From an uncultured Geobacter sp. (GTDB taxonomy: Bacteria > Desulfobacterota > Desulfuromonadia > Geobacterales > Geobacteraceae), in the NCBI GenBank assembly GCA_903915655.1, contig CAIWTU010000083.1, positions 62,001 through 126,000 on the forward strand: a stretch of 64,000 nucleotides of DNA, given 5' to 3'. Each line of letters opens with the position of its first letter. Position 1 is the first letter of the stretch. The notes under the pieces were generated by a model, which saw nothing but the letters and a program-made list of their open reading frames with translations, ran no database searches and was not told the origin of the DNA. Below, one piece after another: positions 38,548-57,629 of the stretch. The position numbers and the translations under genes are program-made.

Positions 38548-39025
38548 ATCGATATTATTCCCGCAGATGGTTGTATTCCTCCTGAGATCGATCGAACTGG
38601 TCAGACGGGTCCTTGCCGAAGGAGTAGCTTCCCGGATTCAGGTAGACAGGAGAATCCACTTCAGAGTTGCAGCTGTCATCGAAGAGAAGAAGTGTACTGT
38701 CCTCCGAGATATTTTCTGGGATGGTTTCACCATATTCGCCAAAAATTTTATCAGCGGAAAAGGTGACCGGCCATCGGTCCGATGGAGACAAAGCGGGGGG
38801 AGAGAAAAGGAATCTGCTGGTGAAGGGGCATTCCCTGTTGTTAAGAAACTCCAAAAGGCGCTGAGAGTAGCGGTGACCCGATAGGCGATAAATCACTTTA
38901 TCCAGTGCCCAATGATCCTTCAAAAACGCGGTTTTTAACAGTCACCAATTGCCAACCGCTAGTTCAGGGTGACAGAGTTTAATCCCGGAAATCATATCTG
39001 CCATAAAGGAGGTTGTAAAGCCCCC
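38548..39025. other. Gap between Fe-S protein and gvpJ, no convincing gene
   Basis: 478 bases. A 122-codon frame on the minus strand (38555-38923) begins with TTG and has no ribosome site; an overlapping plus-strand frame is no better. A heptamer-type repeat lies at 38941-38975. The gap marks the edge of the gas-vesicle locus and may hold gene remnants. Confidence 0.4.
38941..38975. repeat. Heptameric repeat at the edge of the gas-vesicle locus
   Basis: GTCACCA, ATTGCCA, ACCGCTA, GTTCAGG, GTGACAG: period 7, more decayed than the other three arrays in the window. Confidence 0.45.
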
Positions 39026-39355
39026 CTATCCATCTCCAACCTTCACCCCGGACGCAAGCGAGGTTTCGATACGTGCAAGTCGTTCCTCAAGCCTCTCCAT
39101 AACCTCCGGGAGCTCCTGCTGTTTTTTCGACCCGGAACAGAATGCGGGGTTGTTCACCCACCAGTCCATCCCCATCTCCTTGGCCTTATCAACAGAACAG
39201 ATGACGAGTCGGATCTGGATCGACAGTAATTCTACGTCGACGAGGTTGATGCGTATGTCACCAGCGATAACTATCCCTTTGTCCAGGATCCTTTCGAGAA
39301 GATCCGCGAGATTTGTACTTCCCAAAGAATGTCGGGCACCGCGTTCGATTGCCAT
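39026..39355 (-). CDS. gvpJ: Gas vesicle protein GvpJ (GvpA family)
   Basis: A 109-residue member of the GvpA fold family: '[20 protein letters not shown]' followed by 'INLVDVELLSIQIRLVICSVDKAKEMGMDWW'. The longer C-terminal tail with the WW and a charged helix distinguishes it from the shell protein GvpA and fits GvpJ, a minor protein thought to nucleate the vesicle tips. It is the last gene of the operon. Confidence 0.9.
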   Translation of the reverse strand: MAIERGARHSLGSTNLADLLERILDKGIVIAGDIRINLVDVELLSIQIRLVICSVDKAKEMGMDWWVNNPAFCSGSKKQQELPEVMERLEERLARIETSLASGVKVGDG

Positions 39356-39382
39356 TTAGTTTTCCTCCTTTTCACTAAGCTG

Positions 39383-39769
39383 CTACAACAGTTTCCCCAA
39401 TGGCCCCAAATCGAGGTTCAAATCTTCATTTTCGAGACCAAATTCAGTGGCAATCTTGGCGATTTCCTCCGACTGACGCATCAAGGTAAAGCCAAGACGC
39501 TCGATCTCTTCGTCTGTAAGCCCCCCCCCGTCAATCCTGCGAATCGCCTGCTTTTCCAGTAGTTCATGAAGGAGTTTTACCACGGTCAGGACAAGCTGAG
39601 CCAGACCGTTCTTTTTTTTATCCTCAGCGAGGTTGATTCGGCGCGAAGAGTCGTTTTTTTTGCGGGGTTTCAAACTTCGGGACGGGGAGCTATTAACCCG
39701 TGGTGCGATTATTTTGGTAAAATCGCTTCTGTCCGGTGACTCCACCCCGGATCCTCTGTTAACACTCAT
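39383..39769 (-). CDS. gvpK: Gas vesicle protein GvpK
   Basis: A 128-residue protein. The conserved core is 'KNGLAQLVLTVVKLLHELLEKQAIRRID' and 'LTDEEIERLGFTLMRQSEEI', typical of GvpK. The first ~45 residues are basic and variable. GvpK is needed for vesicle formation, probably as an accessory factor. ATGA overlap with the gene before it. Confidence 0.92.
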   Translation of the reverse strand: MSVNRGSGVESPDRSDFTKIIAPRVNSSPSRSLKPRKKNDSSRRINLAEDKKKNGLAQLVLTVVKLLHELLEKQAIRRIDGGGLTDEEIERLGFTLMRQSEEIAKIATEFGLENEDLNLDLGPLGKLL

Positions 39770-39960
39770 AGCGGCAGCCCCTCTTTCTGTCGGACTGTTT
39801 CTACTGAGGTCAGGATGACCTGCAGGCCGAGGTAAACAAGATCGATGTCGGCAACAGAAATCATGACATCACCGACAATTACGGCGCCTTTGTTGAGGAT
39901 TCTGTCAAGAACCTCGCTAAGACTTACATGTTCATTTTCGTCTATCTTGTAATCTGACAT
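39766..39960 (-). CDS. Gas vesicle GvpM/GvpS-type protein (GvpA family)
   Basis: A 64-residue GvpA-family protein: 'SLSEVLDRILNKGAVIVGDV' then 'VMISVADIDLVYLGLQVILTSVE'. The 'ISVADIDLVYLGL' sequence is the GvpM/GvpS variant, not shell GvpA. These minor paralogues act in assembly. Whether to call it M or S depends on a tree I cannot run. Coupled to gvpK. Confidence 0.85.
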   Translation of the reverse strand: MSDYKIDENEHVSLSEVLDRILNKGAVIVGDVMISVADIDLVYLGLQVILTSVETVRQKEGLPL

Positions 39961-40070
39961 CCCTTACCCTGCTTTCAGTCGACCCGGGTTAACCAGGAAC
40001 AGCGTTATTATATCGGCTATATTTTAATCAGCTTCCCGCCGGCGGAGAAAAGAAGAATTTCGAATCCGCA

Positions 40071-42029
40071 TCACTTTGAATGACGATACAGGAGCTGCCC
40101 CAGTACGTCAAGATTTTCAATCCCCCGGGGTTCGCTTTGACGATACACTACCGTCTGGCTGATATGTGGGAATTTCATTAAAAACCGTTCACGGACGACA
40201 GATTCCCTCCGGAACAATGAGCCGCAAAGTGGATCCGGGCTTTCAGGCGTTGCCATATTCAAAAAAAGATGAGGAACCTGAATTTTCAGACGCCCGCAGG
40301 CTGCGACAAGATCGGTAGTTTCGGCAAAGGACATTTCCGTAAGAATGCTGACCGCGTACAGTGCCGACCTGGACGGGTCGCTCAGCACCGACCTCAAGCG
40401 CTTCAAATCCTTGGACAGCCTGACCAGACGCTCAGAGATACCCGGCAACCAGAAGATTTTCCGGTACTTCAGAAAAAGGGTAAAGACCGCCTTCAACCAT
40501 CCCGCAATGATCTCCGGCAATTCTAACAGTCTTACCAGATGGCCCGTCGGTGCCGCGTCGAGAATAAGGAGGTCATAATTCTCCGGGGTCAAGAAATACA
40601 TCATCGCCGTCAGGGCCATCAACTCATCGATCCCGGGAGGGGAGAGATCCATGATCCGCTCCATGACTTCACGATCAAACGTCAAATCGTGGTTCGGCAT
40701 CAACTGTGAGAGAAATTGCGTCAGCTCTTCCCTGTATTGTTTTTTAAGAGCGACAAAATCAGCAGTGGCGTCCATTTCCATGGCCCATAGTCCCGGCGCC
40801 ACAAGCTTCGGCTCGGGGCCGAGAGGGATGTTCAGACAATCAGAAAGAGAATGAGCAGGATCGGCCGAAAAGAGGAGGATCCGCTTTCCTGTATAAGTGC
40901 GAGCGAGACGTAAGGCGGTTGCGCAGGCGAGGGTGGTCTTGCCGACACCCCCTTTCCCTGCAAAAACCAGCATCGACATAGCCGGCGCCGGCAGAGGAGG
41001 GGGACTGTCAACGCGGGGGGAGAGCAAAGGGAGGGATAAAGGGTCTTCTCCGGAAACCGGTTTTATCTCTTTCAGCCCTTTCCAGAAAAATCTGAGTGAT
41101 TCCATCCCTCTGATCTCCTCTGGATAAAGAGGAACCCCCCAGAGCCGAAGCCTGGAAAAACCTGGATCATTAAAAATACGGCACAGTTCCTCGAGCTGGC
41201 GGGCACGGATATTACGGCATGTAAGACAAGAACTTTCCGGGTAGAGACGGTTGATAACCAGATCCTCAACGCCTATCTGGAGGCGGTGCAATTCCCGTAT
41301 CAAATCCAGTGTCTCCTCGATGCTCAACGTCTCGGCCAACATAACAGGGACAAACCTGCACTCTTTACGATCCTTGAGGAGGAGTTCCATCTCCCTCACC
41401 GAAGCAGCGAGTCCTTCAACAAAGTGATCAAGGTCGTCCCTGTCATAGGACCCCCGAAAGAGCTTCTTCATGTACCGCTGTTTTGCCAGCAGGGTGTCCA
41501 ATGCCGCTAGCCAGTTGCGGATCGTATCGGGCATTTCCATGAGGCGCAGGGCGTGCCCCGTCGGCGCTGTATCCATTATGATCAGGTCATAGGCTCCTTC
41601 CTTGATCCATCGGCTGATCTCTAGGAAAGCCATCAACTCGTCCATTCCCGGAAGGGATAACTCGAGAAAACGGTTGATGTCCTCTTCGTCCAGGAAGGTC
41701 CCCCGTGAGGCGATTTCCATCAGCCTCTGACGGTTTTTCACCTGAAACTCTCGAAGATAGACCATGGCGTCAAGTTCCATGACCTGAAGATTCGGTGGGA
41801 GGGGGGCCCCGGCTAAACTGTCCTGAAGGGAATGTGCTGGATCGGTGGAAACCAGAAGAAGGGATCGCTCCGGATGACGAAGAGCTAGCTCAAGCGCTGT
41901 AGCCGCCGAAGCCGTGGTCTTCCCCACACCGCCTTTGCCACCGAACAGCAGAAGACGAATGCTCGGATCTGATAAAAAAAAAGGAGACTTTCGAGGGGAT
42001 TTCATAACCTGTCCCATTTTTTGTGACAT
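40071..42029 (-). CDS. Double ArsA/Get3-type ATPase in the gas-vesicle operon
   Basis: A 652-residue protein made of two ArsA/Get3 halves. Each has a deviant Walker A (GGKGGVGKTT near 30-39; AGKGGVGKTT near 353-362), switch II-type 'STDPAHSLQDSL' / 'SADPAHSLSDCL', and 'DTAPTGHALRLMEMP' / 'DAAPTGHLVRLLELP'. A CxxC (CLTC) in the first half is the Get3 zinc-site type; the second half lacks it. ArsA proteins expel arsenite with ArsB; Get3 proteins carry hydrophobic tail-anchored proteins. No ars genes are nearby. In this place it may escort the very hydrophobic GvpA family proteins (inference). Confidence 0.85.
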   Translation of the reverse strand: MSQKMGQVMKSPRKSPFFLSDPSIRLLLFGGKGGVGKTTASAATALELALRHPERSLLLVSTDPAHSLQDSLAGAPLPPNLQVMELDAMVYLREFQVKNRQRLMEIASRGTFLDEEDINRFLELSLPGMDELMAFLEISRWIKEGAYDLIIMDTAPTGHALRLMEMPDTIRNWLAALDTLLAKQRYMKKLFRGSYDRDDLDHFVEGLAASVREMELLLKDRKECRFVPVMLAETLSIEETLDLIRELHRLQIGVEDLVINRLYPESSCLTCRNIRARQLEELCRIFNDPGFSRLRLWGVPLYPEEIRGMESLRFFWKGLKEIKPVSGEDPLSLPLLSPRVDSPPPLPAPAMSMLVFAGKGGVGKTTLACATALRLARTYTGKRILLFSADPAHSLSDCLNIPLGPEPKLVAPGLWAMEMDATADFVALKKQYREELTQFLSQLMPNHDLTFDREVMERIMDLSPPGIDELMALTAMMYFLTPENYDLLILDAAPTGHLVRLLELPEIIAGWLKAVFTLFLKYRKIFWLPGISERLVRLSKDLKRLRSVLSDPSRSALYAVSILTEMSFAETTDLVAACGRLKIQVPHLFLNMATPESPDPLCGSLFRRESVVRERFLMKFPHISQTVVYRQSEPRGIENLDVLGQLLYRHSK

Positions 42030-42045
42030 CTTTCAGGAAAAGAAC

Positions 42046-42306
42046 CTATTCCCCGGCTTTCTGATCCTCCCCGCCTGCTGCCCCCTCCCTGATAGCGTCG
42101 AGGCGATCGAGTAGTGTCTTTTCTTCGGCGTCGAATTCCGCCTCCGTCAATTGCCCGGTCTCCAGCATCATGTAGAGTTCACTGAGTCTGGCCGTTATGG
42201 TTTCCGCCTCGTTAGCCTGCTCCTCTTCAGCCGCACTGTAAATCTTCTCGAATACCCAGAAGAGGCCTCGCGCGGGTGCCAGGAGGATGTCATCAATGAT
42301 AAACAT
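42046..42306 (-). CDS. gvpG: Gas vesicle protein GvpG
   Basis: An 86-residue protein beginning 'MFIIDDILLAPARGLFWVFEKIY', followed by a helical, acidic stretch ('LSELYMMLETGQLTEAEFDA'). This is the GvpG form, an assembly factor that binds GvpF/L in known systems. It lies 16 bp before the ArsA gene and 51 bp after gvpF/L. Confidence 0.92.
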   Translation of the reverse strand: MFIIDDILLAPARGLFWVFEKIYSAAEEEQANEAETITARLSELYMMLETGQLTEAEFDAEEKTLLDRLDAIREGAAGGEDQKAGE

Positions 42307-42357
42307 TTCTATCCTCCGCAGGGGCGAACTTTAGTGCGTGGCTCCGACTGGGGGGAT

Positions 42358-43119
42358 TCAGAAGCGCAGCTCCACGTCGACAAAATTGTGGGGTGCCCAT
42401 GGTCCATTGAAATCGAATGTAAAATTGTTATCAAACCCGTGCGCCGCCTCGAATACGGCAGCCTCGAAATCCCCACTCACCGCCTCTCGTCCGACCAGGC
42501 AGGCCAGGTTCATGACGTCCCGTTCGGTCCGCGTTGAATTTCTTTTAATTTCAAAGCAGGCGGAGGAAAGAATCGACTCGACCCGGTCCATATGTTCATC
42601 CCGGTCCTCCTGAAGTATCCGGTCGAAGAGGCGTCCAACTTCAATCTTGTCTTCCTGTGTAGGGACACGACTCTTCCCAAGGAACTGGTCCCTCGCCGCC
42701 CGAATCTCCGCATGGGTGGTGACAAAATACTCAAATATATTCGGCACATCCCATGCAACCCGCAAGCCCATCTCCACCTTGCCGGAAACGCGGTGAAGCT
42801 GCTCGGTAAAGGATTTACGGTTGAGTGACAAGATACGTTTAATCGCTTTTGGCCCTTCCGCAATGACGCCGAAAGTGATAGGGAGGGGGGTTTCTTCTTC
42901 CATGAGACGCTTCAGAACGGCCTGGTGCGCTGCAATATGACGGCGTTCCGGTCGGATCTTTCCATTGCCGTAATCACTGACTACTGCGGCGACCTGGTTA
43001 TCCGTAATAAGATAAACCGCTCCCCCGTCAACTCCAATATTGCCAAACTCGCGGTCCCCTGTTGCCGGGATGATGGCATAAAGGTACTTAGAGCCATTTG
43101 TCACTTCCTTACCACCCAT
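42358..43119 (-). CDS. Gas vesicle protein GvpF/GvpL (copy 1)
   Basis: A 253-residue protein of the GvpF/L family: 'YLYAIIPA' at the start, 'PLPITFGVIA' in the N domain, and 'FNGPWAPHNFVDVEL' at the end. GvpF binds GvpA in cyanobacteria and is thought to chaperone it. One of three such genes here; GvpF and GvpL cannot be told apart by eye. A GAGGGA site precedes the ATG. Confidence 0.9.
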   Translation of the reverse strand: MGGKEVTNGSKYLYAIIPATGDREFGNIGVDGGAVYLITDNQVAAVVSDYGNGKIRPERRHIAAHQAVLKRLMEEETPLPITFGVIAEGPKAIKRILSLNRKSFTEQLHRVSGKVEMGLRVAWDVPNIFEYFVTTHAEIRAARDQFLGKSRVPTQEDKIEVGRLFDRILQEDRDEHMDRVESILSSACFEIKRNSTRTERDVMNLACLVGREAVSGDFEAAVFEAAHGFDNNFTFDFNGPWAPHNFVDVELRF

Positions 43120-43295
43120 ATGACTGTCCCTCTCATTCTATGTTCTGATTCAGAAAATATGCTCCCTAGATACCGCTTCGCATGACGCAAACAGAAACGA
43201 GCCCGCAGCTGCTGGCAGCCCGGCCCACGCCGCGTCACTATCGGTTTACCGCCTCTGCGGAAATTAAATATTGCGGTGAGGAATAATTCCTTCTG

Positions 43296-43475
43296 CTACA
43301 TCTCAGCCGACGTACTGCGTGTCAGCTTGATGAATTTAACGTACTTGATAAGGTTATCCTCCAGTTTTACCTCAAGAAGGGCGCTACAGGTATAGCACTT
43401 CACCTGCCCTTCATAGTCACTGTAAGCCTCATCTAGGTCAATTGTGTGCCCACAGGATAGACAGTTAATCTTCAT
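43296..43475 (-). CDS. Small zinc-ribbon-like protein in the gas-vesicle operon
   Basis: A 59-residue protein. Two cysteine pairs (CLSC near residue 5-8 and CYTC near 28-31) could hold one zinc. The middle is acidic ('TIDLDEAYSDYEG'), the end a short helix with basic residues. I chose the second ATG (43475) because GGAGG lies 6-8 bases before it. No function known. Separate from gvpN and the gvpF/L copy by 304- and 176-base gaps. Confidence 0.75.
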   Translation of the reverse strand: MKINCLSCGHTIDLDEAYSDYEGQVKCYTCSALLEVKLEDNLIKYVKFIKLTRSTSAEM

Positions 43476-43779
43476 CTTTGCTCCTCCATTGTTCATCAGA
43501 ACTTACGCGCGAAATCTCGAATGCTCATACAGGAGGCTATCCCTGGAAGGCCGATCCTCGGGTTTTTACAATCTCTTCATGTCGGGCCCACTGCGCGATC
43601 AGCCAGGCAAAGCGTATCCGGCGGTTGGCCAGCGCGATGATTTCGTGATTGACTCTCCGCGACTCCCCGGCACCCAGGAAAAAACCGGTATTAGACCTGC
43701 ATGCTCGATGGCCCGCAACGGAGCGGTTCGTAGAAATGTGATGTGAATCTTTAATAGTCAGCATATCGTCCCAGCCCTT
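43476..43779 (-). other. Gap with a possible small ORF or transposase remnant
   Basis: 304 bases between the zinc-ribbon gene and the small coiled-coil gene. A 75-codon frame (43537-43764) starts 15 bases after the stop of the gene before it. Its C-terminal half ('EIIALANRRIRFAWLIAQW') recalls the end of IS110-family transposases, with good codon use; its first half does not look like a protein. I cannot decide between remnant and chance. No -24/-12 promoter with proper spacing is visible. Confidence 0.3.
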
Positions 43780-44103
43780 TCAGTATCTGATCTTGAATGC
43801 TCCTGTTGTTGTTCGTGGCGCCACCGTTGTACGAGGCTTATCTATCCCCGGCAGGGAGTTGCGAGTAATCCCTTTCCCCCCCAGTGAATTAACTATCTCC
43901 TGTCTTTGCGCCTCGATCTCTCTGAAACGCTGATCGATATGTTGGACCCTTTCCAGTGCGCTCTGTTTTTCCTTACCCCGACGAAACTTTTCCATTTCTA
44001 GAATGCTGAGCTTCATATAGGCCTTGTAAGGAATCGACCCTTCATCGGCGCGGCCAGAGAGCGTCTTTATATCCTGCACCCCTCTCAAGATCTTTTTAGT
44101 CAT
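43780..44103 (-). CDS. Small coiled-coil protein downstream of gvpN, unknown
   Basis: A 107-residue basic protein. Residues ~30-72 form a probable helix/coiled coil ('LSILEMEKFRRGKEKQ', 'QHIDQRFREIEAQRQEIVNS'); the tail is Thr/Arg-rich and ends 'GAFKIRY'. I do not recognise the family. Its ATG overlaps the gvpN stop by 4 bases, so it is made together with GvpN and may bind it. Confidence 0.8.
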   Translation of the reverse strand: MTKKILRGVQDIKTLSGRADEGSIPYKAYMKLSILEMEKFRRGKEKQSALERVQHIDQRFREIEAQRQEIVNSLGGKGITRNSLPGIDKPRTTVAPRTTTGAFKIRY

Positions 44104-45098
44104 AGGATGGCCTCTTTAACTTTATCTTTGACCGGCTTAACGGACCCGCAGTATTTGCTGATCACTTCTTCCACCTTTTGCATCATCACTGGCTGACCGC
44201 CACGGGTAATCTTAGCAGTGTCCGTAGCCAGGACATCCTTACAGATCATCTGGAAAAAGGAATCATCTGCGCGGGCGCGACGGTTTTGAGAAGCAAGTAT
44301 CCGGCCGATGGCGATTCCTGCACGAATGGTCGGGCGGTTATTGTTCACGCCGAACATCCTCAATTCCCTTACGATATCGACAATCCGCTCGGCATCTTCC
44401 GGCGGGAGTCCTGATTTCTTCGTAACGATCATGATTTCCGTATCCCGGTCGTAGTGTTCCAACTGGATGGTAATCAAACGGTCCATCAAAGCGTCCTGGG
44501 TTTTGTGAACACCTGCGTATTCTTCCGGGTTAGAGGTAAAGATCGCCCGAAACGCGGGATGCACCGCCATGTACCCATCCCCGGAGCGCCGCAGTTTAGG
44601 GAGGTTCAGAATCCCCTCGGAGAGAACGCTGAGGAGGGCATTGTTCGCTTCCGGCCGCGAGCGATTAAACTCGTCATAAATTAGAATTTCCCCTCGCTCA
44701 CAGGCCGTAGTCAGCCGGTTATCCACCCAGAGGCTTTTCATTTCTTCCTCAGTCTTCAGTACCGAGTGGATATAGTTGTCCACGACTTTATTTTTCCGGT
44801 AGCCGGAGTCCTTCCCCACCAGATCAGAACTGCCAAATTCATCGTCCCCGTGGACCAGGGTGACAGGCCGTCCCAGTTTGGAAGCGACGTGAAAAGCCAT
44901 GGTCGTCTTGCCAGTTCCTGCTACGCCAGAAAAATGGACAGGATAACCTGCCACCAGATAGGCCAGGGCCCGCTGCGTGACCTGCTCCACATAGGGAGAA
45001 GAAATAAAGCTATCGCTTGGCTCGGGTTGAACGCTGTCCACCCCTGCCTTTTCGCGTACCGTTGACGTAGCGACTATTTTTGCGGAATTCTTATTCAT
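44100..45098 (-). CDS. gvpN: Gas vesicle protein GvpN, MoxR-type AAA ATPase
   Basis: A 332-residue AAA+ ATPase. Walker A is GVAGTGKTT (58-66), Walker B 'EILIYDEFNR', sensor 1 'AIFTSNPEEYAG', and an arginine-finger-like 'ALMDRLITI'. GvpN is required for full-size vesicles in known systems. The first ~35 residues are a variable arm. It sits 25 bp after the zinc-finger gene. Confidence 0.93.
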   Translation of the reverse strand: MNKNSAKIVATSTVREKAGVDSVQPEPSDSFISSPYVEQVTQRALAYLVAGYPVHFSGVAGTGKTTMAFHVASKLGRPVTLVHGDDEFGSSDLVGKDSGYRKNKVVDNYIHSVLKTEEEMKSLWVDNRLTTACERGEILIYDEFNRSRPEANNALLSVLSEGILNLPKLRRSGDGYMAVHPAFRAIFTSNPEEYAGVHKTQDALMDRLITIQLEHYDRDTEIMIVTKKSGLPPEDAERIVDIVRELRMFGVNNNRPTIRAGIAIGRILASQNRRARADDSFFQMICKDVLATDTAKITRGGQPVMMQKVEEVISKYCGSVKPVKDKVKEAIL

Positions 45099-45123
45099 GA
45101 ACTAACTTCCCCTTTCTTACTCG

Positions 45124-45480
45124 TTAACGGTTCAATATCCATCCTTTTCCCCTACACTTAAGACAGGCCATTGCCGGGGCCGAAGAGTCATCGCCTGAAC
45201 CTCTACACACAGGACAGGAAACAGTCGACTGCTGCGGTCGATAGACAGAACCCCTGCCGCCACAGGTGGTACAGGTAAGAGTCTTGACTGCCCCGGTACC
45301 CTGGCAATGGGCGCAAAGCACCGCCGGCGATTGGACTAAAACTTTGCCACTCCCCCCACAGACACAGCAGGTGGATAGGGAAGACATGACATCGAAGGGG
45401 TCTCTGCCCCGACCGCTACAAAAAGCACACGTCAGCTCCTCACAGGCCACCGACCCCCGGCTGGTACGCGCATTGTTCAT
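45124..45480 (-). CDS. DnaJ-type zinc-finger protein without J domain
   Basis: A 118-residue protein built of six CxxCxGxG units: CAFCSGRG, CCVCGGSG, CAHCQGTG, CTTCGGRG, CPVCRGSG and CLKCRGKG. DnaJ itself has four, binding two zinc ions. There is no J domain and no substrate-binding C domain, so it cannot drive DnaK alone. It may hold or pass unfolded gas-vesicle subunits. Placed between the GvpC-like and gvpN genes. Confidence 0.85.
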   Translation of the reverse strand: MNNARTSRGSVACEELTCAFCSGRGRDPFDVMSSLSTCCVCGGSGKVLVQSPAVLCAHCQGTGAVKTLTCTTCGGRGSVYRPQQSTVSCPVCRGSGDDSSAPAMACLKCRGKGWILNR

Positions 45481-45541
45481 GCCATCCCCCTAAATTAAAA
45501 ACCTTGCAGTACCGCTCAGGCACCGGATCCCGGGCATCCCG

Positions 45542-46204
45542 TTATTTCTTGCCCCGCTTCCCTCTTGGCCCTGTTTTTGGAGGTTTTACATCCAGCCAGC
45601 TCACCTGCTCAGTGGTGGGTTCGACCATCGGGGGTTCTAACACCACAGCCATTTCTGTCACCTCAACTGCAGTTTCCAGCAGAGAGACCGATGTTTCCTC
45701 CACCGAAGCGACCGGCATCGCCTCCAGTTGCTCTTCGACCCCAGGCAGCTCGATCGGTGGCGCAGGCGTCACGATGACTAGTTCCTTCTTCATCTTTAGT
45801 TGAACAGGGTGGGAAACAACATTCTGGCAGCGCCAGGCAAGTCGCCCCCCCATCAGGTCGTCCGCCGTCTCTTTGCGCATGGTCGTGACCTGTCTTCTCA
45901 TCTCTGCCAGGAAGGCCCCCCGTTCGCCTCTCCCCTTGAGACCCATACTGTACCGGTCTCTGGAAAAATTGTCCAGCAGGGAATTCACCTCATTGGCCAC
46001 GGCAGCCACAAAAGCCGTCCGCTCCCCACGGGCCAGTTTTGCCATTGCGGAGTGAGCAGCGGCAAAATCAGCCTGCATGGTTGAAACCGTGAAGGCCAGT
46101 TCTTTGGCCCCACGTGCCATCTCCCGCATCAGTGCACCCCGATCACTCCGAAGGGCATCAATCTCCCCACGCAATCGGGTCATGTCATCGGTCAAATTGC
46201 CCAT
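45542..46204 (-). CDS. GvpC-like protein with ~33-residue repeats (long form)
   Basis: A 220-residue protein. Residues 1-123 are helical and repetitive: an 'RGALMREMARGAKEL' block, then a 33-residue unit at 61-93 starting ERTAFV, and a related unit from 94 starting ERGAFL. The tail (~135-220) is rich in Pro, Val, Glu and Thr and ends in basic residues. The 33-residue period and the place after gvpA match GvpC, which winds round and stiffens the GvpA shell. Sequence identity to known GvpC is low by eye, so this is an inference. Confidence 0.6.
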   Translation of the reverse strand: MGNLTDDMTRLRGEIDALRSDRGALMREMARGAKELAFTVSTMQADFAAAHSAMAKLARGERTAFVAAVANEVNSLLDNFSRDRYSMGLKGRGERGAFLAEMRRQVTTMRKETADDLMGGRLAWRCQNVVSHPVQLKMKKELVIVTPAPPIELPGVEEQLEAMPVASVEETSVSLLETAVEVTEMAVVLEPPMVEPTTEQVSWLDVKPPKTGPRGKRGKK

Positions 46205-46233
46205 GATGATTCTCCTTCACTCTCTCAGAACGC

Positions 46234-46280
46234 GAAAAAGCCTGTGCAAAGCGGAGGAATAATCCCCCCGCCCCACAGGC
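46234..46280 (-). terminator. Intergenic hairpin with T run after gvpA copy 1
   Basis: GCCTGTG/CACAGGC (46240-46246 with 46274-46280) plus an inner GCGG/CCGC stem, followed on the minus strand by TTTTTC (46234-46239). This looks like an intrinsic terminator or attenuator placed between gvpA and the GvpC-like gene, so most transcripts may stop here. Confidence 0.7.
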
Positions 46281-46295
46281 ATTTTTCACTTATTG

Positions 46296-46514
46296 TCAAG
46301 CCGGAGTTGCTGCGCTGGCGGTAAGACCAATCGCCTCAGCATACTTGAGGTAGGTCTCAACCGAAGCAATAACCACTCTAGCCTCGATGGAAAGCAACTC
46401 AATGCCGACCAGAGATACTTTCACCCAAGCATCGATCACGATACCTTTGTCCAAGATACGATCGACAACTTCTGCCAAACTCGAAGAATCTGTTGATTTC
46501 TGTACTTTTGCCAT
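46296..46514 (-). CDS. gvpA: Major gas vesicle shell protein GvpA (copy 1)
   Basis: A 72-residue hydrophobic protein: '[20 protein letters not shown]' then '[21 protein letters not shown]', the classic GvpA sequence. Many copies pack into ribs that form the vesicle wall. Its protein sequence is identical to copy 2; the DNA differs at about eight silent sites and in the stop codon. Ribosome site GAGGGA upstream. Confidence 0.97.
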
Positions 46515-46544
46515 CGCTATTCCCTCACTTTCGTCTGTTATCGT

Positions 46545-46835
46545 TTATTTCGCTTTACCTAACCAGGCGCGAGAGGCACCTGCAAGGTCCGAGGCATTCT
46601 CTTTTCTCATCCTGCCGACCTGCTTTTTGATTCGTGCAACGTACGAGGCACGTTCCCTGCTGCTTTTTCTTGCCATTGCGGTGTGGGCTGCTGCAAAATC
46701 AGCCTGCATGGCCGAAACCGTGGAGGCCAGTTCCTTGGCCCCACTCGCCAATTCCCGCATCAGAGCCCCTCGATCACTCCGAAGGGCGTCAACCTCCCCG
46801 CGCAAACGGGTCATATCATCGGTTAAATTGCCCAT
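46545..46835 (-). CDS. GvpC-like protein, short form
   Basis: A 96-residue paralogue of the 220-residue protein. Its first 60 residues are nearly the same; it then lacks exactly the 33-residue unit (61-93 of the long form) and resumes at ERASYV, matching the long form's ERGAFL unit. It has no Pro/Val tail. The pair shows loss or gain of one whole repeat. Placed between gvpA copy 2 and gvpA copy 1. Confidence 0.6.
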   Translation of the reverse strand: MGNLTDDMTRLRGEVDALRSDRGALMRELASGAKELASTVSAMQADFAAAHTAMARKSSRERASYVARIKKQVGRMRKENASDLAGASRAWLGKAK

Positions 46836-46872
46836 GATGGTTCTCCTTCACTTCCTCTGTTTACAGGTAGGG

Positions 46873-46914
46873 CCCATGAAAGGCGGATGCTCTCGACAAG
46901 CACCGCCTCATGGG
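46873..46914 (-). promoter_or_regulatory. Strong intergenic stem-loop after gvpA copy 2
   Basis: CCCATGA/TCATGGG, GGCGG/CCGCC and TGCT/AGCA stack into a ~16-bp stem with small bulges and a 7-base loop. No T run follows, so it is more likely to protect the gvpA mRNA 3' end than to stop transcription. Confidence 0.65.
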
Positions 46915-46930
46915 TATCCTTCAATCAGTC

Positions 46931-47149
46931 TTATGCCGGAGTTGCTGCACTCGCGGTAAGACCAATCGCCTCGGCGTACTTGAGGTAGGTCTCAACCGAA
47001 GCAATAACCACCCTAGCCTCGATGGAAAGCAGCTCAATACCGACCAGAGATACTTTCACCCAAGCATCGATCACGATACCTTTGTCCAAGATACGATCGA
47101 CGACTTCTGCCAAACTCGAAGAATCTGTTGATTTCTGTACTTTTGCCAT
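46931..47149 (-). CDS. gvpA: Major gas vesicle shell protein GvpA (copy 2, promoter-proximal)
   Basis: A 72-residue protein identical to copy 1. Being the first gene after the sigma-54 promoter and followed by a stabilising stem, it is expected to be the most highly made gene of the locus. Ribosome site AAGGAGG. Tandem copies of gvpA raise shell supply, as in several cyanobacteria. Confidence 0.97.
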
Positions 47150-47225
47150 CGCGATTTCCTCCTTCTTTTGATGTTGTTACGATTTTTGAAGAAAACTCTC
47201 AGCATGCACGCTTGTCTTTATACTT

Positions 47226-47241
47226 AGCAACATTTGTGCCA
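47226..47241 (-). promoter_or_regulatory. Sigma-54 promoter of the gvpA operon
   Basis: On the minus strand TGGCAC-AAATG-TTGCT, a full match to the RpoN consensus (GG and GC 10 bases apart). Start near 47215, leader ~65 bases to the gvpA ATG at 47149. No other -24/-12 element of this quality is seen in the locus. Confidence 0.88.
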
Positions 47242-47333
47242 ATCGTCAAATATATAGTTTAAAAGTCTAACTTACCGTATTTGCCGGATAATTACCGTTG
47301 GGAAAAAGTAGTCTAAAAATCCTCCGAAGGAGT

Positions 47334-47384
47334 TATGGAATCGTAACTATGGAATCCATTCCTAGTATGACAGGAAGGCATTCC
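47334..47384. promoter_or_regulatory. Likely activator-binding array (UAS) for the gvpA promoter
   Basis: GGAA-N4-TTCC palindromes at 47351-47362 and 47373-47384, centres 22 bp (two helix turns) apart, plus a TATGGAA half-site at 47334-47340. They sit about 130-165 bp upstream of the predicted start, right after the receiver gene stop. Same arms and 4-base spacer as the palindrome at 55487-55504. Confidence 0.7.
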
Positions 47385-47765
47385 CTACCCTGTAGCGTAG
47401 CGGGTAAGCACGGAGACAATCTCATCATGATCGAAGGGTTTGCCGACGAATGCTGTGATCAGCCCCGACTGGATGGCCCCCTCAATTGTCAGGTCATCCT
47501 GGTAGAAATAGCCGGAAACGATGACGATGGGGAGATGGGCTTCGGTTTTGCGGAGTTGTCGTGCCAATTCAAGACCGTCGATATCCGGGAGTTTGGCGTC
47601 GAGAAAGGCCATTCCGAATTTATTGCTCTCTGTCAGGGCAATTGCTTCTGTGGCGCTCAAAGCCTTCATGCTGACGAAACCCGCTTTGCTGATGATATTT
47701 TCAAGAATCCAGCACATCTCGGGCTCGTCATCCACAACGAGAATCGGGGCGTATTTTCCGTTCAT
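47385..47765 (-). CDS. Single-domain response regulator (CheY-like)
   Basis: A 126-residue receiver. Acidic pair 'VVDDEPEM' at 11-16, phospho-acceptor Asp56 in 'AFLDAKLPDIDG', and Lys in 'VGKPFD'. No output domain, so it passes phosphate or binds a partner. The ATG at 47765 overlaps the kinase stop by 4 bases; the longer open frame is the kinase's shadow. The activator sites begin right after its stop. Confidence 0.9.
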   Translation of the reverse strand: MNGKYAPILVVDDEPEMCWILENIISKAGFVSMKALSATEAIALTESNKFGMAFLDAKLPDIDGLELARQLRKTEAHLPIVIVSGYFYQDDLTIEGAIQSGLITAFVGKPFDHDEIVSVLTRYATG

Positions 47766-49264
47766 GATTCGTTCCCTGCAAAACAGATCGGTAATATTAT
47801 GGTAAAGGTGCTCCCCCGGTTTTCTACGCTTTCCACAGTGATGGTCCCCTGGTGTTGCCTTACGATAGAATAGCAGAGAGAGAGACCGAGCCCGGTACCT
47901 TTTCCCATAACGGAAGTCGTATAAAAAGGATCGAAGATTTTTCCGATTTCCCGGGAGGAGATGCCGCAACCGGTATCCGTAACATCAACCTGGACCTCGG
48001 AGCGGATCGTCTTAACTTCAATTCCGAGGCGACCACCGTTCGGCATGGCGTTGATGGCATTCAGGAAAAGATTCATGTAAACCTGTTGCAGCAGTGTGGC
48101 CACCCCTCTCACCATCACCGGTTCCTGAGGATAGGATGAATTGATTTCGATCTTGAGGATATTAGCATGATAGGTTACCAGTGTCAGGGTTTCCCTGATC
48201 AGGGAAACCAGATTAACCAGGGTGGTTCGGGTCGTTGTCGAAGGATGAGAATATTTCAGGAGATTCTCTATGATCAGCGAGGTCCGCTGGATCCCCTTGT
48301 GGATCTTTTCCGCGCACTCCTGGCGAAACTCCGGCGTGCCGTCCTCTTCCATAAGAAACTGGGCACTCGATGAGCAGACGGCCAGGGGATTTCTGATTTC
48401 GTGGGCGATGCCGCCCGCCATAACCCCGAGGGCGGCAAATTTCTGGGACTGATGCAGTTCTGTCTCAAATTTCCGTCTTTCGGTCAAGTCCCGGCCTACA
48501 GCGACAACACCCGCCGTCTGATTGAAGCTGTCCTTCATCGGAGAAAAGGCCCAGGAAACGGTAATGAATGTCCCGGTGCTTGTCCGCAAGGGGCATTCCT
48601 TCATCTGGGTATGTTTGCTGGTATCGATGTGGGACAGAATGTCCTGGATCTCCTTGCGGTCCTCATCAAGACAGAAGTCGGTAAAGAGGCGTTCCCGCAC
48701 CAAAGCCGCGGTATAACCGGAGAGTCTCTCCGCCGACGAGTTCCAGGTCAGGATAACACCGTTTCTGTCCATAGAGAGAATAAGGTCGCTTGCGCTCTCG
48801 ACGATACTCGCCAGGTGCCGCTCCACCCGCTGGACCTCTCTGCTCAGACGCACCTGCTCCGTCACATCGTCCATAAGGAGGACCGCCCCTTCCACCCGGC
48901 CCAGCCAGGTAAAGGGGAGTATGCTGTAGTAATAGATGCGGATAGGCACCCCGGGAGCACGGTATGTCATCCGCTCCCCCTTGGACGGTTGATTTTTTTC
49001 GATAACCTGGAGGATCCGCTTGGTAATATCCATCTGGTCGAGGATGATGGAAGGGAATACCTCTTCCAACCGGTAGCCTACAGTATTCGCGAGAGTCCGT
49101 TGTCCCTTTTCGAGAAAATTGCGATTCGCCGAGACGATCCGCATGCTTTGGTCGATCAGGAGGACGGACGATGGGATAGCATCCAGTAGCATGGCATAAA
49201 GCCGCTCGTATCTTCCTGAAAGCTCATCTCCTGAAGCAATCGATGTTTTGTATTCCATTGTCAA
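47762..49264 (-). CDS. PAS-domain sensor histidine kinase in the gas-vesicle locus
   Basis: A 500-residue soluble kinase: no membrane span. Two PAS domains (~20-135, ~148-265), then HisKA with phospho-His288 in 'GGIAHEIRNPLAV' and an HATPase domain with 'NLFLNAINAM', 'DTGCGIS' and 'GKGTGLGLSLCYSIV'. PAS domains may bind haem, flavin or another ligand, so it senses a cytoplasmic signal. Pairs with the receiver gene by a 4-base overlap. Confidence 0.92.
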   Translation of the reverse strand: MTMEYKTSIASGDELSGRYERLYAMLLDAIPSSVLLIDQSMRIVSANRNFLEKGQRTLANTVGYRLEEVFPSIILDQMDITKRILQVIEKNQPSKGERMTYRAPGVPIRIYYYSILPFTWLGRVEGAVLLMDDVTEQVRLSREVQRVERHLASIVESASDLILSMDRNGVILTWNSSAERLSGYTAALVRERLFTDFCLDEDRKEIQDILSHIDTSKHTQMKECPLRTSTGTFITVSWAFSPMKDSFNQTAGVVAVGRDLTERRKFETELHQSQKFAALGVMAGGIAHEIRNPLAVCSSSAQFLMEEDGTPEFRQECAEKIHKGIQRTSLIIENLLKYSHPSTTTRTTLVNLVSLIRETLTLVTYHANILKIEINSSYPQEPVMVRGVATLLQQVYMNLFLNAINAMPNGGRLGIEVKTIRSEVQVDVTDTGCGISSREIGKIFDPFYTTSVMGKGTGLGLSLCYSIVRQHQGTITVESVENRGSTFTIILPICFAGNES

Positions 49265-50119: not shown

Positions 50120-50908
50120 TTACTGAAGCGCCGGGACGAAGTGGTAGGGGGGCCAGGGACCGTGAAGCTCGATTTGAAGCCCCTCGGATTCGTGACTTCG
50201 GTTCCATTCATCGATAATTTGCTCCAGGATGGCAACGGCCCCGTCTGGAACGAGGAGGGCAGTGTGAAAAAAGAGCTCTTCGTCCCTCCCCGTGACCTCC
50301 CGTGACTGGAGACGACATTTACTTAACCCCACCGACGTCTCCTTAGCCAACGCTTCGATATCTTCCCCAATTCCATTCAGCCAGGAGGTCATCGCCTTAT
50401 CGACCGTCCCCTTTATTTTCTGCTCCAGAAGATAACGTCTCCCTGGAGGGAGTCCTTCCAACTGTTCCTGTTCCGCTTCCATACGCTCTGCAGTAATCCT
50501 CGCCCGGGCCTGGAGTAGGTCGGCATACCCCTTGAGGGTCCATTCCTTCTTACCCTCAGTATCCTGAAAAAACTTCTTCAAGACCTCCTGATTCTGCCAG
50601 AGTGGTTCCGCCGCAGCCAGCGAGGAGAATACCGTGCCAAACCGGACGGGGAGGACGGGGCCCTGCTCCATGGCGGCCATGACGACCTCTTCGTGTCGCA
50701 GCGCCCTGGGGGCCACCCACGCCAGATTTTCCAGTTTCTCACAGGCAGAGGGGCTGGAAAAGTCGTCAAGATCGACCTCGGCCAGGACGGCGGCGACCTC
50801 CCCGACGACCTCGACAAAAAGGGGATGTTCCCCGTCAATCCCGTTCCCGGAGAGCTCCGGAAGGGGGTCGGCCGGGGTCAGACAAAAAAGATAGATCCCC
50901 GGGTTCAT
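50120..50908 (-). CDS. Gas vesicle protein GvpF/GvpL (copy 3)
   Basis: A 262-residue GvpF/L protein with 'YLFCLTPA', 'VLPVRFGTVFSS' and 'LHGPWPPYHFVP'. Its ATG overlaps the stop of the CDC48-type gene by 4 bases, so the two are co-translated; direct contact between them is plausible. Confidence 0.9.
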   Translation of the reverse strand: MNPGIYLFCLTPADPLPELSGNGIDGEHPLFVEVVGEVAAVLAEVDLDDFSSPSACEKLENLAWVAPRALRHEEVVMAAMEQGPVLPVRFGTVFSSLAAAEPLWQNQEVLKKFFQDTEGKKEWTLKGYADLLQARARITAERMEAEQEQLEGLPPGRRYLLEQKIKGTVDKAMTSWLNGIGEDIEALAKETSVGLSKCRLQSREVTGRDEELFFHTALLVPDGAVAILEQIIDEWNRSHESEGLQIELHGPWPPYHFVPALQ

Positions 50909-53222: not shown

Positions 53223-53912
53223 TTATCCTGACTTCTCGCAGCGTATGGTCACGATACCGTTGTTGCAGGTAACCGTTATTTTTTCCCTTATAAGCGCGTG
53301 ACTCAGAAGTATCTCCTTCCGATATTTCTTTTCCCCCTTTTCGGCGGATATCGTCAGGACGTCGTCCCGGACTTCGAGACTGATATCATCCGGCCCTACG
53401 CCCGGCATTTCCGCAATCAGGGTGGTGGCTACAGCATCCTCAAAGAGATCGATAAGCGGTTCGTGGATCTCCTGCACCACCACCGCGCCGGTTTTCTTGT
53501 CCTTGCGGATATTGCCGAACGGCTCTACCTTGATCCGGTCATCCTTCCCCCCAAGGGCTGTTTTAAAGGTAAAACCATAGACCCCCTTGACACCCCCTTC
53601 TTTGGAGGGGAAGGTAAACTCCCCCTTCTCGGAAACGTTCTCCCCTTTTTCCGAGATCTCGTTGAGTTTTTCGGCGATGTCGGTCAGACCGCTGAGGATG
53701 CGGCTGAACCTGCTCTCGCCCCCCCCTTTTTCTCCGGCAGAGCCTTCTGCGTCCACCCGATCCTCTTTTGCCCCCTGGCGCTTGGAAAGGCGTTCCCCCG
53801 CTTCGGCCAGACTACCAAGGTTGTTAATGAACCCTGACAAACCACTGAAAATTCCGCCCACTACGTCGCCCCGGTCGGAGTCCGTTTTCTTCTTATCTGA
53901 TTTGCGTTTCAT
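53223..53912 (-). CDS. gvpH: Gas vesicle protein GvpH (Hsp20-like)
   Basis: A 229-residue protein. The first ~130 residues are charged and Gly/Ser-rich, with a short hydrophobic-Gly stretch ('GGIFSGLSGFINNLGSLAE'). The C-terminal part (~145-225) is an alpha-crystallin-like domain ('EMPGVGPDDISLEVRDDVLTIS'). This layout is that of bacterial GvpH. Small heat-shock type holding of GvpA is the likely role. The ATG at 53912 lies inside the 3' end of the NtrC-type gene (20-base overlap). Confidence 0.88.
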   Translation of the reverse strand: MKRKSDKKKTDSDRGDVVGGIFSGLSGFINNLGSLAEAGERLSKRQGAKEDRVDAEGSAGEKGGGESRFSRILSGLTDIAEKLNEISEKGENVSEKGEFTFPSKEGGVKGVYGFTFKTALGGKDDRIKVEPFGNIRKDKKTGAVVVQEIHEPLIDLFEDAVATTLIAEMPGVGPDDISLEVRDDVLTISAEKGEKKYRKEILLSHALIREKITVTCNNGIVTIRCEKSG

Positions 53913-55323
53913 CGTCACTCTCCCCTCCGATTTGCTCAATGCCGAATTTTTTTGCCTTTGTGTGCATGGTCTTGTAATCAACCCGCAACAACCTGGCAGC
54001 CCGTGCCTTATTGCCGCCGGTAAATTTGAGCACCTGGGAGAGAACTTCCTTTTCCACGGCAAGGACGGACTGCTGGACAATTTCACCTAATGATGCGTTC
54101 TCCCAGGGCATTAGCACAACCTTTGAGGAAAAGGCGAGTCTAGGCGTGGAGGCCGGTTTGATGCTGAGATCCTCTGCCATGATTGTCTCACCGGCCGCCA
54201 GGGCCGCCCGCCGAATGACCGAACGGAGCTGGCGGACATTTCCCGGCCAGTTGTATGAAACCAACAGTTCCATCGCCTCGGCGGTAAAGGAGGTGATCAT
54301 TTTTTTCAGTTCTACGTTGGCCAGATCAAGAAAACGCTTGGCCAGGTAAGGAATATCTTCTTTTCGATCCCTAAGCGCCGGAACATGGATAGTAAATTCA
54401 CTCAGGCGGTAATAGAAATCCTTTCTGAAGGTGCCGCTCGCTGCCATTTCTTCAAGGTCCTCGTTGGTCGCCACAATGAGGCGAATATCGACCGGCACCG
54501 GTTTGGTCCCACCAACCCTGTTAAGCTGCCGGTCCTGAAGCACCCGGAGAAACTTCGCCTGGGAACCGATGGGCATATTCCCTATCTCGTCCATAAACAG
54601 GGTGCCACCGTGCGCCAGCTCGAATTTGCCTATTTTCAGCCGATCCGCCCCCGTGAAGGATCCTTTCTCGTGGCCAAAAAGTTCGCTCTCCAGAAGATTC
54701 TCAGGGATGGCGCCGCAATCCACCGCCATGAAAGGCGCCGCCACCCTGCCGCTGTCTCCATGGATTGCCCTCGCGACAAGTTCTTTTCCCGAACCCGTTT
54801 CGCCTGTAATGATCACTGAAAAATCCGATTTAGCCACCCGGTGAATATCGGCGGCGAGGCGGTTGATCTCGTCGCTCGGCCCCATGCTCTCGATGAGGCT
54901 GAAGTTTCCATGATATTGATCAGCCATTTTTTTCAATCTTTTATTCAATTGGCCTTCCGCCAGGGCCCTACGGGCAATCCAGAGAACCTCGTTATTGTCG
55001 AACGGCTTGGCAACGTAATCATAGGCCCCACCTTTCATGACCTCGACGGCCTGGCGAATATCGGTGTACGCCGTGATGAGTACTACCGGCAGACCGTCAT
55101 CTATATCCTTTATTTTTTTGAGGACTTCTATGCCGCTGAGACCCGGCATGCGGACATCCAGAAGGACAAGATCCGGGTTCTCCTGGGAGATCTGTCGCAT
55201 CGCCTGAAGACCGTCCGGTGCGGTGACAACCCGAAATCCCTCTTTTACCAGAAGTCGCGTCAAAATCTTCCTGATTTCCTCTTCATCATCAACTACCAGA
55301 ACACATGCCGTTGGATCAGACAT
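53893..55323 (-). CDS. NtrC-family sigma-54 activator in the gas-vesicle locus
   Basis: A 476-residue response regulator: receiver (1-120, phospho-acceptor Asp56), AAA+ domain (Walker A GETGSGKE ~174-181; sigma-54 contact loop GSFTGA at 221-226, one change from the usual GAFTGA), and a Fis-type HTH at the end ('GGNKARAARLLRVDYKTMHTK'). It should turn on RpoN promoters when phosphorylated. The palindrome upstream of its gene matches the array before gvpA, so both may be its targets. Overlaps gvpH. Confidence 0.95.
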   Translation of the reverse strand: MSDPTACVLVVDDEEEIRKILTRLLVKEGFRVVTAPDGLQAMRQISQENPDLVLLDVRMPGLSGIEVLKKIKDIDDGLPVVLITAYTDIRQAVEVMKGGAYDYVAKPFDNNEVLWIARRALAEGQLNKRLKKMADQYHGNFSLIESMGPSDEINRLAADIHRVAKSDFSVIITGETGSGKELVARAIHGDSGRVAAPFMAVDCGAIPENLLESELFGHEKGSFTGADRLKIGKFELAHGGTLFMDEIGNMPIGSQAKFLRVLQDRQLNRVGGTKPVPVDIRLIVATNEDLEEMAASGTFRKDFYYRLSEFTIHVPALRDRKEDIPYLAKRFLDLANVELKKMITSFTAEAMELLVSYNWPGNVRQLRSVIRRAALAAGETIMAEDLSIKPASTPRLAFSSKVVLMPWENASLGEIVQQSVLAVEKEVLSQVLKFTGGNKARAARLLRVDYKTMHTKAKKFGIEQIGGESDDETQIR

Positions 55324-55706
55324 ATACTTTTTTCCCCTTATAATAAGGACGTTTCATCGGAGTAATGCCCCCGGATATCTGCCGGCAGAAAGCGTACACT
55401 GGCGTACGGATACGAATGGCTCTGCGCGATTGGAACGTACGGGAGAGTTCGTGAGCCGTGACACTTTTCCACCGAAGGAGACAAAATATGGAATTACTTC
55501 CATAGAATCATTTCCCTATCTATAAGGAACCCGGATCGATCGGCCCGCGCAATTTCCTATCGAACAGCAGAGGCATCGCGACACTGTCAGGGGTGATGAC
55601 CCGTTACACGCAACTCTACCACCTGCTTGTCTGCATTAACCATACCCTGGAGAAAATAAGGCTGCGCTGGGGAACCGGCAGGCGGTCCTGCGAAGTGACC
55701 CCGGCG
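55324..55706 (-). other. 383-base regulatory gap before the NtrC-type gene
   Basis: No gene. Holds the 18-bp palindrome at 55487-55504 and a weaker AGAA-N4-TTCC at 55504-55515. Near the gene a TATTAT/TATAAG stretch could be a -10. I see no -24/-12 pair with correct spacing, so this gene is probably read by sigma-70. Confidence 0.5.
55487..55515. promoter_or_regulatory. Palindromic operator upstream of the NtrC-type gene
   Basis: TATGGAATTACTTCCATA is a perfect 18-bp palindrome of the form TATGGAA-N4-TTCCATA. A second, weaker AGAA-N4-TTCC overlaps its edge 14 bp on. Same core as the gvpA array. Probably autoregulation. Confidence 0.65.
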
Positions 55707-57629
55707 TCACTCGTCAGATAGGGGGAGCTCCACGATAAATGACGCCCCACCCAGATCATTATTCTCGACGCAAAGCGTCCCTTTGTGAAGCGAAACGATG
55801 TTCCTGCAGATGGTCAGGCCGAGCCCGGTACCTTTTCCTGTATCTTTGGTCGTAAAAAAGGGATCAAAAATTCTGTTCATCTCCCCTGCAGCAACACCGC
55901 AACCATTATCGGCGACAATCACGCGGACAGAGGCCGGCTTATCGGTACCGATTGTAGATTGAACGGTAATAAGGAGTCGCTTCTCCTCGGTACGGCAGAG
56001 GGCGTCGCAAGCGTTGAAGATGAGGTGGGTCATCAGCTTGAGCAGACCGTCCATTCCCATCTTGACGGGGATGCGCGCCAGCGGGGGGGTGTAAACAACA
56101 GAGACCTGCTCCTCCCGCGTTCTGCTCTCGGAGATAATAAGACTTAAGGCAATCACCTCTCGCAGATCACAAATCAACTGTACCATCGGCGGAGAGGGGG
56201 ACAATTGATTCAACTTTTGGCTGATCGTAACGATCCTTTTCAGCTGTTCCCGGCAGATACGCACCCCCTCCAGAGCCTCACAGGGGAGCGGTTCTTCTTG
56301 CATGAATTGGAGTCGCGAGGAGATGATGCTGACGGGATTCAGGAGTTCGTGGGCAACGCCGGCCACCAGACGGCCGACCGCAGCCTCCTTCTCGAACTGG
56401 ATCAGCCAGTCCCTTGCCTCCTGCATCTCCTGCATGTTATCGACAAGGGCCTGTTCATTCAGCTTGCGGTCCGTGATGTCCTGATGGGTACCCATCACCA
56501 GGAATGGCCTCCCCTCCTGCGTCCAGTCGGTCACCCTGCCCCGATCGAGGACCCAGACCCAGCTGCCGTTCCGGTGTTTCATCCTGACCTCGCACTCGTA
56601 GTAGTCAAGTTCTCCCCGGAAATGTTTCTCCATCAGAGCGTAACTGGTCTCAAGATCGTCCGGGTGAGTAAATTTGGCCCATGTATCGATGGAGGTGGGA
56701 GATAGCTCCTCCAGGGTGTAGCCGATAATCTCCGCCCAACGTTCGCTGAAGACTGTCGCACCGGTTTGCACGTTCCACTCCCAGGTCCCGACACGGGTAT
56801 TATAGATGATGGCAACAAGCTTCCTACGCTCTTCCAGCAGCGTCTTCTCCGTCTGTTTGAGGGGAGTAATGTCCACCATTGTGGTCAACAAACAGGGAGC
56901 ATTCCCTGACATAATACGATCGGCGGAAAAAAGCCCGTGGCGGATAGTTCCGTCCTTGCAGCGGACCCTTGTCTCCACTCCCCGGGCGCGCCCTTCCCTT
57001 TCCAGCATCTCAAGAACTTCGGCCCGCGTGCAAGGATCGACCATGATCCTAAGTTCCCCTGCCGTCTTGCCTACGACCTCGGAAAGGGGGTATCCCAGTG
57101 TCGTCAGGAAAACCTCGTTGACCTTGATAAAACGGTCATCGGACAGGGAGGAAACCGCCATGAGCACCGGATTGCTATGAAATGACCAAGAAAATAGCTC
57201 TTCCGACTGCTTCAGCAGCGACATATCCTTTACCACGGCGAACAACGCCAGTTTCCCATTCCACTCCCCCTGAACGATGCGGGTCTCCACCGGGATTTCC
57301 GTACCATCCCGGGCGACAATGGGAACCAGGCAGAAGTCGGCCGGCACGGCAGTCACAAGGCGCGCAGCCTCGTCCCGAAGATCGGGCGAATAAATGGAGA
57401 GAAACGGACGGCCGACAAGCTCTGCTTCGCCATAACCGAGGCGCCGGCAGGCCACCTGGTTAACATGGATCATCACGCCGTCCGGATCCAGCACGAACAA
57501 CAGGTCATTGATAGTATTGAACAAAGCCTCGAAATCGTCTTGAGAGCGGGCCAACGCCTGACGGCAGAGGATATCCAGAGGAGTTGGCGGAGGAGGTGCC
57601 TCAACGTGGCAGTTATCCTTGCTGGTCAT
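55707..57629 (-). CDS. Multi-PAS sensor histidine kinase
   Basis: A 640-residue soluble kinase with three or four PAS domains (~30-140, ~145-260, ~275-395; 'GVMIHVNQVACRRLGYG', 'GTWEWNVQTGATVFSERWAE'). The H-box is 'GVAHELLNPVSII' with His near 426, then an HATPase with 'DNGCGVA' and 'GKGTGLGLTICRNIV'. It is the likely partner of the NtrC-type regulator just downstream, with the operator between. Confidence 0.92.
   Translation of the reverse strand: MTSKDNCHVEAPPPPTPLDILCRQALARSQDDFEALFNTINDLLFVLDPDGVMIHVNQVACRRLGYGEAELVGRPFLSIYSPDLRDEAARLVTAVPADFCLVPIVARDGTEIPVETRIVQGEWNGKLALFAVVKDMSLLKQSEELFSWSFHSNPVLMAVSSLSDDRFIKVNEVFLTTLGYPLSEVVGKTAGELRIMVDPCTRAEVLEMLEREGRARGVETRVRCKDGTIRHGLFSADRIMSGNAPCLLTTMVDITPLKQTEKTLLEERRKLVAIIYNTRVGTWEWNVQTGATVFSERWAEIIGYTLEELSPTSIDTWAKFTHPDDLETSYALMEKHFRGELDYYECEVRMKHRNGSWVWVLDRGRVTDWTQEGRPFLVMGTHQDITDRKLNEQALVDNMQEMQEARDWLIQFEKEAAVGRLVAGVAHELLNPVSIISSRLQFMQEEPLPCEALEGVRICREQLKRIVTISQKLNQLSPSPPMVQLICDLREVIALSLIISESRTREEQVSVVYTPPLARIPVKMGMDGLLKLMTHLIFNACDALCRTEEKRLLITVQSTIGTDKPASVRVIVADNGCGVAAGEMNRIFDPFFTTKDTGKGTGLGLTICRNIVSLHKGTLCVENNDLGGASFIVELPLSDE

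Follow-up and report, generated by a model that had tools for sequence, protein, structure and literature searches.

The gas vesicle (gvp) locus of this uncultured Geobacter sp. raises the question of how its gvpA operon is switched on, and whether buoyancy is thereby linked to RpoN (sigma-54), as proposed in the initial annotation. We address this for the window, i.e. the whole 64-kb stretch of DNA analysed, and for the genome to which it belongs, which is known as an assembly of 171 contigs. The gvp genes are all on the minus strand, as are the features given below, and follow the order second PAS kinase, gvrA, gvpH, a CDC48-type ATPase gene, two gvpF/L genes, gvrB, gvrC, the promoter, gvpA and then structural and assembly genes to position 38555. 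Specifically, Pfam identifies a gvrA-like NtrC-type activator (53893..55323) with a receiver, a sigma-54 AAA+ domain carrying a GSFTGA loop and a Fis-type HTH, a gvrB-like PAS histidine kinase (47762..49264), a gvrC-like single receiver domain (47385..47765; Response_reg) and, upstream of gvrA, a second PAS histidine kinase (55707..57629). This agrees with the initial annotation, in which an NtrC-type activator and two PAS kinases had been placed in the locus. The gvpH gene is located at 53223-53912 and the CDC48-type ATPase gene at 50905-53040.

The first gvpA copy (46931..47149; PF00741) encodes 72 amino acids. The remaining gvpA operon (38555..46835) comprises a gvpC-like pair (46545-46835 and 45542-46204), the second gvpA copy (46296..46514), a gene for a DnaJ-type zinc protein (45124-45480), gvpN, gvpV-like, gvpF/L, gvpG, ArsA-like ATPase and gvpK genes, a gvpA-like gene (39026-39355) and the last operon gene (38555-38923). 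The two gvpA copies (46296-47149) encode identical proteins and each precedes a gvpC-like gene, these two genes being related at the start; the doubled gvpA and gvpC-like unit is also present in L030, L168, L171 and L172. A double ArsA-like ATPase of 652 amino acids (40071-42029) is encoded inside the operon and has relatives in other clusters; perhaps it handles membranes or tail anchors in vesicle assembly.

Inside the 235-bp gap between gvrC and gvpA, and oriented toward gvpA, lies the predicted -24/-12 promoter TGGCACAAATGTTGCT (47226..47241, read from 47241 to 47226). Direct reading shows that it agrees with 11 of the 12 consensus positions of TGGCACG-N4-TTGCW, the single mismatch being at the G after TGGCAC, and that the GG-GC spacing is exactly the 10 nt that sigma-54 requires. 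The gvpA start codon is the ATG at 47149, preceded by a good ribosome site (AGGAGG), and the coordinates bear out the initial annotation, which had the site 77-92 bp 5' of the first gvpA and in the right direction. Counting the C at 47227 as -12 predicts transcription to start at 47215, the same value as had been proposed. The 64-kb window contains a single exact TGGCAC-N5-TTGCW (mean 0.04 in shuffles), and the 3.36-Mb genome contains eight, compared to one match for the reversed control pattern. With one mismatch permitted there are two sites in 64 kb against 1.7 expected, and because the pattern alone is then not significant, the weight rests on exactness and position. Upstream of the second gvpA copy a search gave no sigma-54 site with GG. 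Two of the other seven exact genomic sites (G000:C38:25694-25709, L111, and C7:8153-8168, L108) stand before genes for a secreted protein and a class II glutamine amidotransferase-like protein and are plausible members of the RpoN regulon.

Conservation of the site was studied in 80 genome loci with a close gvpA, further loci of the same phylum and five plasmid loci; after dereplication (L131, for example, duplicates L045, a Desulfarculus assembly of the same phylum as the window, by inference Desulfobacterota), a site was counted if GG was kept, at least 9 of 12 positions matched and it lay 35-120 bp before the start codon. Of 48 loci having gvrA or gvrB, 36 carry such a site, compared with 4 of 40 lacking them (Fisher 4e-10), where the shared ancestry of the loci means that the counts overstate independence; some of the four exceptions are short or partial loci. 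Earlier hand-sorted sets gave 24/37 versus 1/38, with none on the reverse strand and less than 2 percent in shuffles. No gvpA of this type was found on viral contigs. L010, L080, L081, L084 and L095, Bacteroidota among them, have sites resembling TGGCAT/TGGCTT whose -12 part reads TTTGTA or TTTGAA, which suggests a variant -12 element. Taken together, gvpA very probably has a true sigma-54 promoter in front of it, and a promoter of this kind has been shown to function in Serratia.

The factors that such a promoter calls for are encoded in the genome. There is one copy of rpoN with an intact DNA-binding domain (Sigma54_DBD, 206 bits). In GvrA the GSFTGA loop is a variant of the GAFTGA type, the phosphoacceptor Asp motif is intact, and its solved structural relatives are NtrC-family proteins. 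Moreover, the order gvrA-gvpH-AAA ATPase-gvpF-gvpF-gvrB-gvrC matches that given for Serratia (PMC4982088), and on the basis of position and domains we infer that 53893-55323 is the counterpart of Serratia GvrA. In Serratia sp. ATCC 39006 (Ramsay 2011; Tashiro 2016, PMC4982088) the gvpA1 start has been mapped behind a sigma-54 consensus, the gvpA1 and gvrA operons are separate, and full gvpA1 transcription needs gvrA, which encodes the NtrC-like GvrA, together with gvrB and gvrC. According to the account in PMC11778176, citing Hill 2021, an rpoN insertion abolishes vesicles and lowers transcription of gvpA1 and not that of gvrA; low oxygen raises expression (PMC11778176). The two loci are thus alike in having a sigma-54 consensus before the first gvpA and in grouping gvrA with gvpH, the AAA ATPase gene, two gvpF, gvrB and gvrC. 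They differ in that the gvrA operon here is upstream of gvpA in one direction, an inversion that has likewise been described in Psychromonas ingrahamii and Desulfomonile tiedjei; the locus here also has two gvpA copies and an additional PAS kinase gene ahead of gvrA. Comparative evidence, together with the Serratia precedent, strongly supports control of gvpA by sigma-54 through the 53893-55323 gene, but the link between buoyancy and RpoN is not new, since both the mapping of the gvpA1 start and the rpoN mutant in Serratia are already published (PMC4982088; PMC11778176).

The GvrB-like kinase (47762-49264) is a regular component of gvrA-type clusters. For the second PAS kinase (55707-57629), the position next to gvrA is shared by just two relatives of the same order (L162 and L163), and the kinase may therefore be a lineage-specific input. 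In most loci a conserved protein of ~210 amino acids is encoded directly before gvrA (e.g. L075:1097-1690, L030:912-1493 and L045:1505-2089); the gene is absent from the window, L162 and L163. The protein carries the motifs …YIPIIHT..DMG…YQDGLPVC…MGTESAELL…, has no match in NCBIfam, and is possibly an unnamed gas vesicle regulator.

An all-dyad search was carried out on 32 upstream regions. GGAA-N4-TTCC was present in 10 of them (0.18 expected), whereas across 60 shuffled sets the highest count reached by a dyad was 4, and the fitted matrix is CTATGGAAT-NN-ATTCCATAG. In the window, dyad search and matrix predict a GvrA enhancer (UAS1; 47347..47366), ACTAGGAATGGATTCCATAG, centred at about -141 from the predicted start, with an overlapping second dyad or half-site, CCATAGTTACGATTCCATAA, 14 bp nearer the promoter (47333..47352). 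The left arm of UAS1 is imperfect, with ACTAGG where the matrix has CTATGG, and a pattern search allowing at most one mismatch gave no other match to UAS1 in the genome. Among held-out loci, 11 non-duplicates have a site that beats all 100 shuffles, 82-127 bp before the promoter or the equivalent point. Counted simply as 12 of 16 matching letters, the palindrome is present in 19 of 48 gvrA-type loci (0.67 expected) and in 1 of 40 others, this one (L169) ending at a contig edge where gvrA would be; in L054 (Phycisphaerales) a nearly perfect palindrome is located at -404. A free half-site accompanies 17 of 39 sites at exactly 14 bp and six at 22 bp, with hardly any elsewhere. In the clusters of cyanobacteria, Chloroflexi and Firmicutes gvpA and gvpN are conserved, as here, but gvrA is lacking and the sigma-54 site and palindrome are missing almost without exception. 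By comparison between loci, the conserved palindrome near -141 would be the upstream enhancer expected of a sigma-54 system, and CTATGGAAT-NN-ATTCCATAG most likely represents the GvrA enhancer. The text of PMC4982088 names no enhancer sequence; new here is a palindrome that gvp loci of several phyla share and that is likely the docking site of their dedicated activator.

The matrix, which was trained on gvpA upstream regions only, has its next best matches in the window, after UAS1, at 55486-55519. This second predicted GvrA site (UAS2; 55486..55519) is made up of two dyads that overlap at a distance of 14 bp and lies 163-196 bp upstream of gvrA; TATGGAA-N4-TTCCATA occurs in the genome exactly here and nowhere else within one mismatch. 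A site scoring at least 13 lies within 850 bp of gvrA in 10 of the 25 loci that have a close GvrA, usually before the gene for the ~210-amino-acid protein. Searching up to 400 bp from gvrA recovered the palindrome in the window alone, a distance that is too short because this gene separates palindrome and gvrA in most loci. Upstream of gvrA we detected no convincing sigma-54 promoter. Since a palindrome also precedes the gvrA operon, GvrA is predicted to regulate its own operon through UAS2, and our guess as to the direction is repression of a sigma-70 promoter.

The palindrome could instead belong to another regulator, or be an RNA element. We consider this unlikely, even if binding by GvrA is a prediction and one third of the loci in which the recognition helix of GvrA is DYKT are without a recognisable dyad. 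The position near -140, the dyad symmetry and the doubled arrangement all argue for an activator site, as does the association with the GvrA helix, the dyad being present in 20 of 30 loci with DYKT as opposed to 1 of 10 carrying a different helix (Fisher 0.003), a correlation that is partly based on loci that trained the matrix. Furthermore, the palindrome is upstream of the predicted start and therefore outside the gvpA transcript.

It is more doubtful still that, at a real promoter, another activator is at work, e.g. a true NtrC that would tie buoyancy to nitrogen, although the genome encodes some 16 strong sigma-54 activator domains and weak matches in addition. Across phyla gvrA is accompanied by the palindrome and the promoter, the genome's two best palindromes both fall within the gvp locus, and Serratia requires GvrA (PMC4982088). 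The suggestion that RpoN would bring nitrogen, surface or energy signals to this operon is likewise unsupported: the high-quality predicted site is confined to the gvp locus, and GvrA scores below the curated cut-offs for both NtrC, the nitrogen regulator NR(I) (436.6 versus 558.6 bits), and AtoC (448 versus 714). At glnA-type enhancers NtrC uses dyads about 100-140 bp before a -24/-12 promoter, its site is TGCACC-N5-GGTGCA, and it controls its own operon. GvrA resembles it in the receiver, AAA+ and Fis-type domains, in the upstream dyads and in the predicted control of its own operon; unlike NtrC, it falls under the NtrC cut-off and its predicted site, CTATGGAAT-NN-ATTCCATAG, differs from the NtrC site. 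Because a high-quality GvrA site was found only in the gvp locus of the genome, the predicted wiring looks dedicated rather than shared with a nitrogen regulon.

Finally, it is very improbable that the sigma-54 match arose by chance, with a sigma-70 promoter or read-through from the gvrA operon driving gvpA instead. That operon is on the same strand across the 235-bp gap, with just a weak hairpin (CTCC-TTC-GGAG, then T5; 47315-47332) that was unlisted by the terminator scan. However, no sigma-70-like site is listed in the gap, the sigma-54 site keeps its distance in most gvrA clusters, and the Serratia operons are separate, though in the other order (PMC4982088).

Just after the predicted start there is a further palindrome, AGCGTGCATGCT (47201..47212), with GCATGC at +9. 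In 18 of 44 loci, against 1.08 expected, the predicted gvpA transcript carries GCATGC, often as GGCATGCC, at about +3 to +9; these loci include the window, L019, L029, L030, L121, L127 and L129. An RNA fold was considered as the reason and rejected, the leader folds being not unusual (mean z -0.5; window +1.1) with L138 as the sole exception. In L138, unlike in other loci, the corresponding position of the leader is taken by a perfect hairpin, GGAGGCATGTC...GACATGCCTCC, with a z of -5.3. A repressor of gvpA may use GCATGC as its operator.

We thus regard it as highly probable that the gvpA operon is transcribed from an RpoN-read -24/-12 promoter that GvrA opens from the upstream palindrome, with the second palindrome serving self-regulation. 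The sequence itself gives the promoter and its conservation, the palindromes with their spacing, and intact rpoN and activator genes. RNA polymerase with sigma-54 would sit closed at the gvpA promoter; GvrB, the neighbouring PAS kinase, probably phosphorylates GvrA, with GvrC in the relay. GvrA would then bind CTATGGAAT-NN-ATTCCATAG about 140 bp upstream together with the further half-site 14 bp away, loop to the polymerase and open the promoter by ATP hydrolysis via its GSFTGA loop, and the copy of the palindrome before gvrA would let it control its own operon. Binding of the palindrome, looping, the GvrB/GvrC phosphorelay, autoregulation and the signal are what we infer within this scheme.

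A broader proposal, for and against which we see the balance as even, is that gvp clusters spread between phyla as self-contained modules consisting of GvrA, a tandem 14-bp CTATGGAAT-NN-ATTCCATAG enhancer and the sigma-54 promoter, with an enhancer before gvrA closing a self-regulation loop and GCATGC (+3 to +9) acting as an undescribed repressor operator. With GvrA, enhancer and promoter moving together, the new host would have to supply only RpoN. Now that an enhancer sequence can be named, the GvrA target and its tuning, long an open question, become directly testable, and such knowledge would be useful for moving gas vesicle clusters between bacteria as acoustic reporters. RpoN control of flotation has so far been known from one enterobacterium; our comparison of sequences suggests that it is the rule for gvrA-bearing gas vesicle clusters in Desulfobacterota and several other phyla, and that it is not used by cyanobacteria, Chloroflexi and Firmicutes.
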